A stretch of 64,000 nucleotides of DNA from Janthinobacterium sp. Marseille (GTDB lineage Bacteria; Pseudomonadota; Gammaproteobacteria; Burkholderiales; Burkholderiaceae_D): NCBI RefSeq assembly GCF_000013625.1, contig NC_009659.1, forward strand, positions 1,984,001 to 2,048,000, in the 5' to 3' direction. The first letter of the stretch is position 1, and every line of letters starts with the position of its first letter. The notes under the pieces are model-generated. The model had not been told where the DNA came from, did not search any database, and saw nothing but the letters and a program-made list of their open reading frames with translations. This document shows, in pieces, positions 8,718-11,842 of the stretch. A program made the translations under genes and the position numbers.

Positions 8718-9143
8718 CTATGTTAGATTTTTGAAAAGATCACTTAATTCTTTGTATGTACTAACTGCCTGTTCCATTGCGAACTCATAGCGGATTGCAG
8801 TAGTAGTAAATACCGCTCTTTCCGTATCAAGCTCAACGGTATTGCCATCGACACTCTGCTGATAGGGAGTGCGATACAAAAGCTTGGGCAATACATCATT
8901 CACTGCAGACGATTGTGGCAAAGTGCCTTTTGGCACAATCTTGTCTGGTGCTGCCAGCGCTCGATTTAGGGCTGTCTTAAAGTCGATGTCTCGTGCTTTA
9001 TAGTTTGGCGTATCCGCATTAGCTATATTCGAAGCGACAACCTCCAATCGCTTGCTGAACAATCGTACCGATGTCTCCCAGAAACGATCATCAGAACTCT
9101 GATTTCCAATAGGTATGTGACCTTTGTTTGTAACGTTGTCCAT
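8718..9143 (-). CDS. flgB: Orphan FlgB-like flagellar rod protein
   Basis: A 141-residue protein with the flagellar rod family N-terminus (VVASNIANADTPNYKARDID), the FlgB-type middle (YRTPYQQSVDGNTVELDTER) and a C-terminal amphipathic helix (AMEQAVSTYKELSDLFKNL). Length fits FlgB, which forms the proximal rod of the basal body in the periplasm. No other flagellar gene is in the window. It begins 11 nt after the eptA stop, so it is the last gene of the glycosyltransferase-eptA-flgB set. Why a rod protein should be here is unclear; it may be a target of, or adaptor for, the pEtN transferase, or a chance passenger. Confidence 0.85.
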   Translation of the reverse strand: MDNVTNKGHIPIGNQSSDDRFWETSVRLFSKRLEVVASNIANADTPNYKARDIDFKTALNRALAAPDKIVPKGTLPQSSAVNDVLPKLLYRTPYQQSVDGNTVELDTERAVFTTTAIRYEFAMEQAVSTYKELSDLFKNLT

Positions 9144-9154
9144 TCAATCGCTCC

Positions 9155-10780
9155 TTATAAACGACGGCATTGTTTCAACATGTCCAGCTTTGGTGTGTAG
9201 ACGGCATTTTCAATTTCTGTCATGCCAAGAACTGTGTGATAAATGTTGTCATGGCTAAACGCCTTGGTTTGTAATGACTTCACGCAATCGGAATCAACCG
9301 ACATCCTGTTGCGATACCCTTCCGACATCCACAACAACAGTGGAATGTTTTTCTGAACATCTGGCGCAAAGAAATACGGTGCTCCGTGCAGGAATAATCC
9401 ATTTTCACCAAGAGACTCACCGTGGTCGGATACATAGAGAAAAGCAGTGTCGTATCTGTCTGACAGATCACGAAGCATGGTGATCATTTGGCTGAGAACG
9501 TGATCCGTATAAAGAATGGTGTTGTCGTAGGCGTTATGTATCTCGTCTAAAGAACAAGCGCCTAGATCAGTGGTTCGACATGTCGGTTTGAATATCTCGA
9601 AAGATGCGGGATAGCGACGCCAATACGCTGGTCCGTGACTTCCAATGTTATGCAAGACAAGCAGTTGATCTGTCGATTTTTTTGTAATGGACTCGGACAA
9701 TCCGGCAAGTAAAACTTCATCGTGACAGTAATCCTGTCCACACAATGATGGTGCCATCGCAGGTTGCATAGCCACAGTTTGAACTCTGGCACAAATTCCT
9801 TTACAGCCGCTGTTATTGTCACGCCACTCTACAGCGACTCCGTTTTTCGACAACGTATCAAGTAGGTTTGTCCTACTACGTTCCTTAGCAACATCGAATT
9901 CATCTCTTCCTGATCCGGAAAAAATACAAGGCAACGAAACAGCTGTAGACGTTCCGCAGCTCTTCATGTCCGTAAAGCGATAGAGATCGTTGATCGCGCT
10001 AAGTTGCGGGTTCGTTTGGCGTGAATGCCCCATTAGCTGGAAATCGGCTGCTCTGGCCGTCTCTCCAATAACAAGGAAAATGAGCAATGGCTTCGAACTG
10101 GAGGTTGTAATCACACGATGTGTATTTCCATCGATATCCGTTAAAGCGGTATCTAATGGTCGGACTTCATGGCGAGCATAATTCCAAGCGGCGTACATCA
10201 GATTGCCTGGATTCATCATGTATCGTACTGACTTTTGCTCTCTAACAAATGTGGCAAATTTCCCTGATTGAGGAAGTATCGCCAGAAGTACAAAGATGGC
10301 TCCAAGCCAAATAAATACGATCCGTTGAAGGGCGTACCTTCGAAATGAAATGGGCTGGAATTTAATTTTCCAAAGTATCCAGGATGGAGCAAAACCGAAT
10401 ACCAAAATGTACGCAAGAAGACGCACATTGAACAAACCAAATGCTTCTGTGGAGTCTGTTTGCGCGACATTGCGAAACATGTCCAAGTCGATGCCAATGC
10501 CAAAATTATCGACGAAATAAGCGCTGGAAGAAGCCAATATAATTAAGATTACGCCTAGTAATCTCATTGCAGTACGGCCTGGAATTAGCAAAAGCAAGAC
10601 AGCGTACAACCAGGTAAAAAGCAAAGACAATGCAAAAATGAAGGCCACCCCGGAAAATCCCGATAACGACATATTTTTGACTAGTGTTGTCCAAAACTGC
10701 CAGTTACAAAGGCCGACTAAGATAATAGCGGTCGCCGATGCAAATAGAATGTCTGGATAGGACTTAAGTAATTTGTTCAC
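9155..10780 (-). CDS. eptA: EptA-family phosphoethanolamine transferase
   Basis: A 541-residue inner-membrane enzyme that moves phosphoethanolamine from phosphatidylethanolamine to lipid A (or other periplasmic acceptors). Five N-terminal membrane helices (residues ~10-180) precede a periplasmic sulfatase-like domain. Zinc and catalytic residues are visible: Glu240 (GETARA), the nucleophile Thr279 (SCGTSTAVSLPC) and Asp-His of SDHGESLGE near residue 450. Several paired cysteines match EptA/MCR disulfides. The start is GTG at 10780. It sits 15 nt after the glycosyltransferase and 11 nt before flgB, so the three are probably one transcript. EptA and MCR enzymes give polymyxin resistance; here metal stress protection is an alternative role. 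Confidence 0.92.
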   Translation of the reverse strand: MNKLLKSYPDILFASATAIILVGLCNWQFWTTLVKNMSLSGFSGVAFIFALSLLFTWLYAVLLLLIPGRTAMRLLGVILIILASSSAYFVDNFGIGIDLDMFRNVAQTDSTEAFGLFNVRLLAYILVFGFAPSWILWKIKFQPISFRRYALQRIVFIWLGAIFVLLAILPQSGKFATFVREQKSVRYMMNPGNLMYAAWNYARHEVRPLDTALTDIDGNTHRVITTSSSKPLLIFLVIGETARAADFQLMGHSRQTNPQLSAINDLYRFTDMKSCGTSTAVSLPCIFSGSGRDEFDVAKERSRTNLLDTLSKNGVAVEWRDNNSGCKGICARVQTVAMQPAMAPSLCGQDYCHDEVLLAGLSESITKKSTDQLLVLHNIGSHGPAYWRRYPASFEIFKPTCRTTDLGACSLDEIHNAYDNTILYTDHVLSQMITMLRDLSDRYDTAFLYVSDHGESLGENGLFLHGAPYFFAPDVQKNIPLLLWMSEGYRNRMSVDSDCVKSLQTKAFSHDNIYHTVLGMTEIENAVYTPKLDMLKQCRRL

Positions 10781-10795
10781 GGGTGTATGTGGTGC

Positions 10796-11842
10796 TCAAT
10801 GTTTATTCGCCGACATGACGGATTCTTTATAGGAAGCGATCACAGGATTTGTGCCATCTTCAGGTTGAGATGGCGGCTCATATTGCTCCAGCAGATAGAG
10901 GGGACGTCGCTTACTCTCTATAAATAGGCGCCCTAGGTACTCACCGATAATTCCAATCGCCATCAACTGCAGTCCACCTAAAATCATCACGGTGACAATC
11001 AACGTTGGAAATCCCCTCACCGACTCACCGATGAGCAGTGTCTTTATCAAAAAGTACAGGGCATAAAGAAATGCCATGCCAGAAAACAGCAAACCTAGAT
11101 AGGTTGCGATTTTTAACGGGGCGACCGAAAAGCCAGTAATTCCCTCGAGTGCAAAGTTCCAAAGCCGCCAATAACGCCATTTGGTGGTGCCGGCAGCACG
11201 TGCATCACGGTCGTAATCAAGTGTCACATGTCTATAACCGACCCAGGCAAACAGGCCTTTCATAAAGCGATTTCGTTCTTCTAGGAGATTGAGAGCGTCT
11301 ACGGCGCGTCTGCTCAATAGGCGAAAATCGCCGACATCTGCGGGAACTGGCACGTCACTTAAGCGATTGATAACCCGATAGAAGGCGTGAGCAGTCGCCT
11401 TTTTGAGCCATGACTCGCCACTGCGGAAACGTCTGCGCATGTTCACAATGTCCGCACCGCCTAACCATGCTGCGAGCATCTCTGGAATCAGCTCCGGAGG
11501 ATCTTGAAGGTCCGCATCGATAATGATCACGGCATCGCCAGTTGCCAAACGCAAACCGGCGCTCATGGCCTCTTCTTTCCCGAAATTTCTAGTGAATCGA
11601 GCTACCCCAATCTTTGGATTAGCTAAGCGCAGCTGCGTCAATAGAAAATGTGATTTGTCTGTACTGCCATCATCTACGTAGATAATTTCGCAATCTTGAT
11701 GAAGGCCTGAAAGTGCATTTTTTAAGCGTTCATGAAATATAGGCAAAACACTTTCTTCATTAAACAGAGGAACAATCACGGACAATTTGTATGAAGAAGT
11801 CTTGACTTCATCAAAACGAGAGATCGAATATAGTTTTTCCAT
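10796..11842 (-). CDS. Polyprenyl-phosphate glycosyltransferase (GT2, GtrB/ArnC-like)
   Basis: A membrane-anchored family-2 glycosyltransferase that loads a sugar onto undecaprenyl phosphate. The catalytic domain shows LSVIVPLFNEE, VDDGSTD and IIDADLQDPPE with its DxD metal site. A C-terminal pair of membrane helices follows (YLGLLFSGMAFLYALYFL; TLIVTVMILGGLQLMAIGII). The ATG at 11842 (MEKLYSIS) is preferred, with AAGAGAAG upstream; a longer frame to 11908 has a poor N-terminus. It is upstream of eptA by 15 nt. ArnC-type enzymes also modify lipid A, so joint remodelling of the envelope is a reasonable inference. The sugar is unknown. Confidence 0.88.
   Translation of the reverse strand: MEKLYSISRFDEVKTSSYKLSVIVPLFNEESVLPIFHERLKNALSGLHQDCEIIYVDDGSTDKSHFLLTQLRLANPKIGVARFTRNFGKEEAMSAGLRLATGDAVIIIDADLQDPPELIPEMLAAWLGGADIVNMRRRFRSGESWLKKATAHAFYRVINRLSDVPVPADVGDFRLLSRRAVDALNLLEERNRFMKGLFAWVGYRHVTLDYDRDARAAGTTKWRYWRLWNFALEGITGFSVAPLKIATYLGLLFSGMAFLYALYFLIKTLLIGESVRGFPTLIVTVMILGGLQLMAIGIIGEYLGRLFIESKRRPLYLLEQYEPPSQPEDGTNPVIASYKESVMSANKH

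Follow-up and report, generated by a model that had tools for sequence, protein, structure and literature searches.

The window analysed here is a 64,000-nucleotide (nt) stretch of Janthinobacterium sp. Marseille (NC_009659.1, positions 1,984,001 to 2,048,000), part of a 4,110,251-base single-contig chromosome. It contains three minus-strand genes, GT2-eptA-flgB (the trio), which encode a polyprenyl-phosphate glycosyltransferase of the GT2 type, a predicted lipid A phosphoethanolamine (pEtN) transferase and a protein of the flagellar rod family FlgB (Table 1). An earlier interpretation made from the letters alone (the sequence-only reading) had described three genes on one strand with gaps of 15 nt (GT2/eptA) and 11 nt (eptA/flgB), and its coordinates, strand and gaps were all correct. 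It had also placed the trio inside a metal-resistance operon. The trio does follow czcCBA, MgtC, zinc ribbon and CDF genes on the same strand (minus-strand order: czcC-like, czcB-like, P-II-like, czcA-like, MgtC, zinc ribbon, CDF, the gene for a protein of 152 amino acids (aa), GT2, eptA, flgB), but a hairpin separates it from the upstream gene. With this hairpin (z -3.67) placed after the 152-aa gene and ahead of GT2, the trio may form its own transcript. A scan of the minus strand at 11909-12060 gave no sigma70-like site, and the promoter of the trio could not be named; in view of the hairpin and this negative result, the trio is not necessarily co-transcribed with czc. In the explanation that we consider best, the trio would be a small operon appended to a metal-resistance island of the czc type.

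Table 1. Genes and sequence elements of the trio and its surroundings (window coordinates).
Feature	Coordinates	Strand	Basis
Orphan flgB (mFlgB branch member)	8718..9143	-	family models, tree, residue comparison
eptA, predicted lipid A phosphoethanolamine transferase, GTG start	9155..10780	-	family models, residue check
GT2, GtrB/ArnC-like polyprenyl-phosphate glycosyltransferase, alternative in-frame ATG start 11908	10796..11842	-	family models
Hairpin, possible terminator, between 152-aa gene and GT2	12019..12054	-	-18.7 kcal/mol, z -3.67
Terminator-like inverted repeat, flgB / DUF4148 gene interval	8648..8663	not assigned	
152-aa protein, no assigned family; recurs beside GT2 in the window genus	12051..12509	-	
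CDF cation efflux transporter	12751..13788	-	family models
Double zinc ribbon protein	13772..14062	-	family search
MgtC-family protein	14124..14570	-	family search
czcA-like RND pump	14666..17890	-	72% to pMOL30 CzcA
Short gene, P-II-type by eye	17905..18246	-	reading of the sequence, without family search
czcB-like adaptor	18257..19837	-	own reading, match to CzcB-like genes of relatives
czcC-like outer membrane factor	19846..21135	-	own reading, match to CzcC-like genes of relatives
DUF4148 protein	8308..8622	+	family search
CopR/CzcR-like response regulator, internal 27-bp repeat	7408..8106	-	below model cut-off
Truncated heavy-metal sensor kinase	6797..7411	-	family models

The flgB product scored 85.7 bits with the family model TIGR01396 (cut-off 59.05). 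The sequence-only reading had called this gene an orphan and had asked whether the chromosome holds another flgB; it does, in a separate flgBCDEFG run starting at C1:1606835. The window protein groups with the FlgB of pMOL30, apart from flagellar FlgB, and this metal-island branch (pMOL30 flgB type) is called mFlgB below. A search of 392 genomes of the same family with protein P0001 matched 23 places in 22 genomes with at least 106 bits, the next match scoring 94.8 bits. With nine further places in six genomes, taken from the top of an order-wide draw of 399, the set came to 32 mFlgB genes in 28 genomes. Candidates from the search lists in G079, G099 and G567 turned out to be ordinary flg operons. 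A profile search of 399 genomes of the order revealed no clear new carrier among the matches listed (G363:C5:113079 was left aside), and a pattern scan of contigs returned 88 stretches; among the 80 listed, six matched known carriers and the rest belonged, by title, mostly to unrelated phyla. Thirty-one stretches from the 28-genome set and four from plasmids made up the 35 mFlgB stretches that were compared. They include near-copies: L008, L073 and L074 are the same pMOL30 locus, and L049 and L050 the same trio.

A separate flgC was present in none of the 35 mFlgB stretches, whereas all 29 flagellar control rows had one; weak FlgC matches within the mFlgB stretches fell on mFlgB itself. Metal-efflux markers were found in 31 of the 35 stretches, the exceptions being L058, L059, L062 and L072. 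At a threshold of 1e-20 another profile search scored 7936 proteins, flagellar FlgBs included, and among the best 120 of these the database name, where given, was 'flagellar basal body rod protein FlgB' or a variant spelling of it. In the tree, a branch with a support of 98/92 set 36 mFlgB rows apart from the flagellar FlgBs, 29 in number, and from two FlgBs encoded in metal regions of Pseudomonas plasmids; grouping the two Pseudomonas rows with the mFlgB rows was not rejected (p 0.32). The best tree has a single origin of the mFlgB branch, which falls short of a firm result. Ratios of nonsynonymous to synonymous substitution rates (dN/dS) were tried for ten mFlgB pairs; nine gave values between 0.04 and 0.34, and one was saturated. 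These sequence comparisons support the view that mFlgB is a selected FlgB paralogue with its own role, under purifying selection, rather than a stray flagellar gene.

Several observations accompany this branch. The two Pseudomonas plasmid loci (L087 and L089) carry an orphan flgB near heavy-metal or copper genes; their proteins group with flagellar FlgB, and they are possibly an independent case. Two more FlgB-like proteins, L196 (G600) and L197 (G548), group with the orphans in the tree and score below the cut used. A small Cys-rich protein is encoded near mFlgB in L009, L055, L058, L059, L061 and L064, within ~145 nt in four of the six, and the single member scanned had no Pfam match. DUF302, TFIIB-type zinc-ribbon and DUF6328-type genes (one member of each assigned by Pfam) recur beside mFlgB in other lineages (L075, L077, L078; L057, L059, L061, L066, L069, L070).

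Within the genus, the trio was found in G558 and G536 with 100% protein identity, and in G526 (L051) with identities of 88%, 89% and 91% and the same 15- and 11-nt gaps. Between G526 and the window, dS was ~1 and dN/dS was 0.075 for GT2, 0.056 for EptA and 0.043 for FlgB. A second copy in G558 consists of GT2 and flgB (75%) without eptA, and a full-length CzcR/CzcS-like pair adjoins it. The sequence-only reading had proposed a genome search for conserved GT2-eptA-flgB neighbourhoods near czc and had allowed that the linkage might be unique to this genome. The linkage recurs and, since it is not confined to one genome, that reservation falls away.

The regulator adjoining the trio is CopR/CzcR-like with a score below the model cut-off. 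Its gene (7408-8106) contains a 27-bp in-frame tandem duplication at 7506-7567, which the G558 version lacks (223 vs 232 aa). The window sensor kinase (6797-7411) spans model positions 1-186 of 457, and an identical (100%) short protein occurs in G558. In the second G558 cluster (L052) the kinase is full-length, unlike the truncated one of the window.

The linkage of EptA to mFlgB extends beyond the genus. At E 1e-30 or better, 29 EptA homologues were found in 15 of the 28 carrier genomes and none in the other 13. EptA lay within 1 kb of eight of the 32 mFlgB genes, whereas gene numbers and genome sizes would predict 0.027. Four of these eight belong to the window genus and four to G600, G481, G549 and G133; a plasmid protein of L088, for which Pfam gave the Sulfatase domain only, was dropped from the EptA count. 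The six different EptA proteins linked in this way occupy five places of the EptA tree, and their grouping in one clade was rejected (p 9e-51). As a control, 118 CzcA-like genes of the same genomes were examined, in counts that include related copies of one genus. Within 15 kb, EptA was near 12 of the 26 CzcA-like genes with mFlgB and 4 of the 92 without (p 1.2e-6); within 10 kb the corresponding counts were 9/21 and 6/97 (p 9e-5). When G558, G536 and G526 were removed and only EptA-bearing genomes were considered, the 15-kb counts were 9/9 versus 4/33. Chance linkage of EptA and mFlgB was rejected by the 1-kb counts; the CzcA-centred control at 5 kb was not significant.

Selection and linkage together bear on the view that flgB, eptA and GT2 merely gather in mobile metal islands, with no joint function and with mFlgB as a selfish or leftover gene. 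Many carriers are indeed islands or plasmids with transposases, the neighbours of mFlgB vary, and for 16 of the 29 EptA genes a CzcA-like gene is found no more than 15 kb away. We nevertheless regard such a passenger origin as unlikely, given the dN/dS values of the nine pairs, the conserved spacing and the fact that EptA is near CzcA mostly where mFlgB is near as well (at 10 and 15 kb).

The family assignments of the two enzymes were examined separately. EptA scored 557.1 bits with the pEtN transferase model NF028537 (cut-off 500) and contains the EptA_B_N and Sulfatase domains. The sequence-only reading had credited it with all catalytic residues, and Glu240, the Thr at 279, Asp452 and His453 were found, together with five Cys pairs (275/285, 326/330, 347/352, 401/409 and 499/538); they correspond to residues of N. 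meningitidis EptA quoted in a passage of PMC8306577. The mobile pEtN transferases of the MCR type belong to the same enzyme superfamily, but the window protein fell under every listed MCR cut-off (best model MCR-12, 654.6 vs 1200) and shares 38% identity with MCR-5.1. GT2 has a PF00535 domain and a DxD-type motif, and fails the ArnC equivalog cut-off (160.1 vs 529 bits). Two close GT2 paralogues, one with 81% identity (in a match that crosses one TAG) and one with 78%, lie in the same chromosome, both in regions with metal-type genes. At these two places, C1:1956787 and C1:2640547 (L080 and L081), the paralogue adjoins a homologue of the 152-aa protein, and the second also adjoins a DUF4148 gene and a CzcR/CzcS pair. 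These surroundings look like a repeated metal-island module of the window genus.

EptC of Campylobacter reportedly modifies the rod protein FlgG with pEtN, and from this precedent the sequence-only reading had suggested that FlgB may be the periplasmic protein substrate of EptA. The proximity of EptA to eight of the 32 mFlgB genes in five EptA lineages and the conserved 11-nt eptA/flgB spacing are what such a pair would lead one to expect. However, 13 of the 28 carriers have no EptA match and 24 of the 32 FlgB genes lack an EptA neighbour within 1 kb. A Ser or Thr was present in at least 70% of rows only at alignment columns 38, 45 and 102, and all three columns are Ser/Thr in flagellar FlgB too, leaving none specific to the mFlgB branch. 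FlgB also lacks a strongly hydrophobic N-terminus of the kind used for Sec export; the periplasm would therefore be reachable only via the flagellar exporter, and the exporter protein FlhA was not found in one carrier. As a general function of FlgB, the substrate role was rejected; it is very improbable and the least supported of the specific readings.

The second suggestion of the sequence-only reading, an envelope-modifying set in a metal island, is plausible in view of the five EptA settings, the glycosyltransferases, PAP2 and the published zinc-induced pEtN addition. GtrB- or GT39-type glycosyltransferases are encoded within 5 kb of other mFlgB genes, and in L053 and L056 EptA and mFlgB are separated by a PAP2-type gene. 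The L088 record (Klebsiella variicola EMBL-1 plasmid, 19.6 kb linear) contains a gene named as a phosphoethanolamine transferase, czcE, cadR, a P-type ATPase, a zinc ribbon, flgB, PAP2 and a diacylglycerol kinase. Since its FlgB pairs with that of the Burkholderiales genome G133, this record may hold DNA of another organism.

Residues were compared in 120 proteins, namely P0001 and 119 further proteins from the list ordered by profile score. In the FxxxPhi motif, 119 of the 120 have the docking Phe and all have Leu or Met at +4; R51 was found in 117, D52 in 120 and Y130 in 114 of 119, and 101 of 116 had a hydrophobic residue at positions 3-5. Neither Cys nor His was present in more than half of the rows at any alignment column. 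mFlgB differs from flagellar FlgB at W22, L33, F121, Q124, K125, Y130, L/M136 and F/L/Y137, positions that sit in or beside the two terminal helices; all 28 flagellar rows have Q33 and A136, whereas the window protein has L33 and L136. According to passages of PMC9307174, Salmonella FlgB depends on the matching Phe, F45, for its secretion via FlhB and on R41/D42/I43 to assemble, and assembly apparently goes no further once a certain FlgB fusion has entered the rod. Export and motility are described as being blocked by early subunits stalled at the gate (passages of PMC8983047 and PMC10936197), and an N-terminal hydrophobic signal as being needed by early flagellar subunits (PMC8983047). As the docking, assembly and N-terminal residues are kept, mFlgB seems capable of docking and perhaps of being exported, with its packing helices changed.

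A structure search of the PDB yielded rod chains of FlgB at TM-scores of 0.44-0.58, and the matches under E 0.001 were Salmonella rod chains. Because the models were weak and the TM-scores in this range, no residue was mapped onto the rod. The flagellar rod protein FlgB (PDB 7bin, 7cg0), the top PDB match, shares the family, the docking Phe and the central motifs with mFlgB; unlike it, mFlgB has no flgC alongside and differs at positions 33, 121, 130, 136 and 137. The kept docking and assembly residues (PMC9307174, passages) could also mean that, in metal stress, mFlgB takes the place of flagellar FlgB and forms a functional rod that is less sensitive to metal. Changes in the terminal helices at positions that are invariant in the 28 flagellar rows (Q33 and A136) speak against such a replacement, as does the carrier G763 described below, and we consider it improbable.

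The explanation that we favour combines envelope remodelling with competition in flagellar assembly, and as a whole we give it a probability of a little under two in five. From its family, GT2 would load a sugar onto undecaprenyl phosphate, and EptA would add pEtN to lipid A; by analogy with the zinc-induced EptA of Pseudomonas, the two together may remodel the envelope in metal stress. mFlgB, by comparison a branch of metal-island paralogues under purifying selection, with no separate flgC and beside EptAs of five lineages, keeps the FlhB-docking Phe and the rod-assembly residues with changed terminal helices. When induced by metal, it would most likely occupy or pass the flagellar export gate and compete with flagellar FlgB. 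Proximal-rod assembly would then be stopped or altered, with motility going down while efflux and envelope remodelling go up, and FlgB and EptA would share a stress programme instead of forming an enzyme-substrate pair. The kept docking motif favours the part of this proposal in which metal-induced mFlgB acts on the flagellar exporter and rod as a competitor or as an altered subunit, and to this part we assign roughly one chance in three. It is a doubtful though conceivable extension that the metal islands of Burkholderiales hold a dedicated FlgB paralogue that, once induced by metal, plugs the export gate or rod or serves as its decoy, and that metal detoxification and lipid A remodelling are coupled to a stop of flagellum assembly through a false structural subunit.

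Several results weigh against this explanation. When the long-branch rows and the two Pseudomonas orphans were left out of the tree, 33 and 27 rows still split, with a support of 74/43. The 5-kb CzcA control gave 2/14 versus 6/104 (p 0.24). The kinase beside the trio is truncated, which leaves the trio with no evident regulator. Two mFlgB models had predicted local distance difference test scores (pLDDT) of 63.7 and 64.0, low values, with helices 15-42 and 105-139 in the latter. Flagella are not enriched in carriers: FlhA is present in 27 of the 28, and 323 of 346 good genomes of the family have some FlgB match. The docking motif may be kept merely for the fold, and FlgB is given as 'not found' in the C. 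metallidurans proteome in a passage of PMC11647595. Finally, no FlhA, FliG or second FlgB match was found in carrier G763 (L060), a metagenome assembly rated 100% complete in which mFlgB lies between CzcP-like and CzcA genes.

G763 places a flagellum-independent role close behind the competitor reading. In such a role, mFlgB could serve, for example, as a scaffold in the cytoplasm or envelope, its changed terminal helices binding a partner encoded by an efflux or envelope gene, and envelope remodelling by EptA and GT2 would run alongside. In line with this are the metal markers in 31 of the 35 stretches and the changes at positions 33, 121, 130, 136 and 137, in or next to these helices. Set against it are the retention of the FlhB-docking Phe, the assembly residues and the hydrophobic N-terminal residue, the finding of only one flagellum-less carrier among the 28 and the lack of a known partner; we consider this role possible but rather unlikely.

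The trio can be set beside three known systems. The closest are the flgB-czcP and flgB-mmrQ loci of Cupriavidus metallidurans CH34 pMOL30, likewise an orphan flgB of a czc island, of the same branch and with metal-efflux neighbours. Passages of PMC9045368 describe flgB-czcP as an operon and state the function of FlgB to be unknown; flgB is metal-induced, since according to parts of PMC11647585 a metal mix raises its expression in the czc and mmr regions, together with that of antisense transcripts. Unlike in the window, flgB of pMOL30 precedes czcP and gtrMAB is nearby; of the two surveyed genomes with the pMOL30 locus, G158 has no EptA match at 1e-30 and G314 has EptA on another contig. The second system is the zinc-responsive lipid A remodelling by ColRS/RaxRH (eptA, lpxE, arnT), in which, in the Pseudomonas case, zinc induces eptA and pEtN addition to lipid A through ColRS (passages of PMC9952513 and PMC8306577). 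It shares EptA, a glycosyltransferase and the metal context with the trio, and the likeness extends to the PAP2-type gene in L053 and L056; the trio, in contrast, adjoins a CopR/CzcR-like regulator and a truncated kinase. A term search of the main text of PMC8306577 found no mention of flgB. Third, C. metallidurans and P. putida have gtrMAB in metal islands, and passages of PMC2864759 and PMC3056050 propose roles for gtrMAB in lipopolysaccharide or membrane repair. These loci likewise have a GtrB-type GT2 in metal clusters, whereas the window GT2 has no gtrA or gtrM alongside.

The sequence-only reading knew of no description of this set as a unit. No paper combining flgB, a phosphoethanolamine transferase and czcA was found in the searches made, but flgB-czcP of pMOL30 is in print. 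The trio is a variant of an association that is already known yet unexplained, and its main point of interest is the FlgB branch. The czc determinant of pMOL30 is well studied and the function of its flgB is unknown; here this gene is placed in a recurrent, selected branch. Branch membership enables a specific question, namely whether metal-induced mFlgB blocks or alters the flagellum. With EptAs of several lineages beside mFlgB, metal resistance, lipid A change and perhaps motility would be linked in a single programme.

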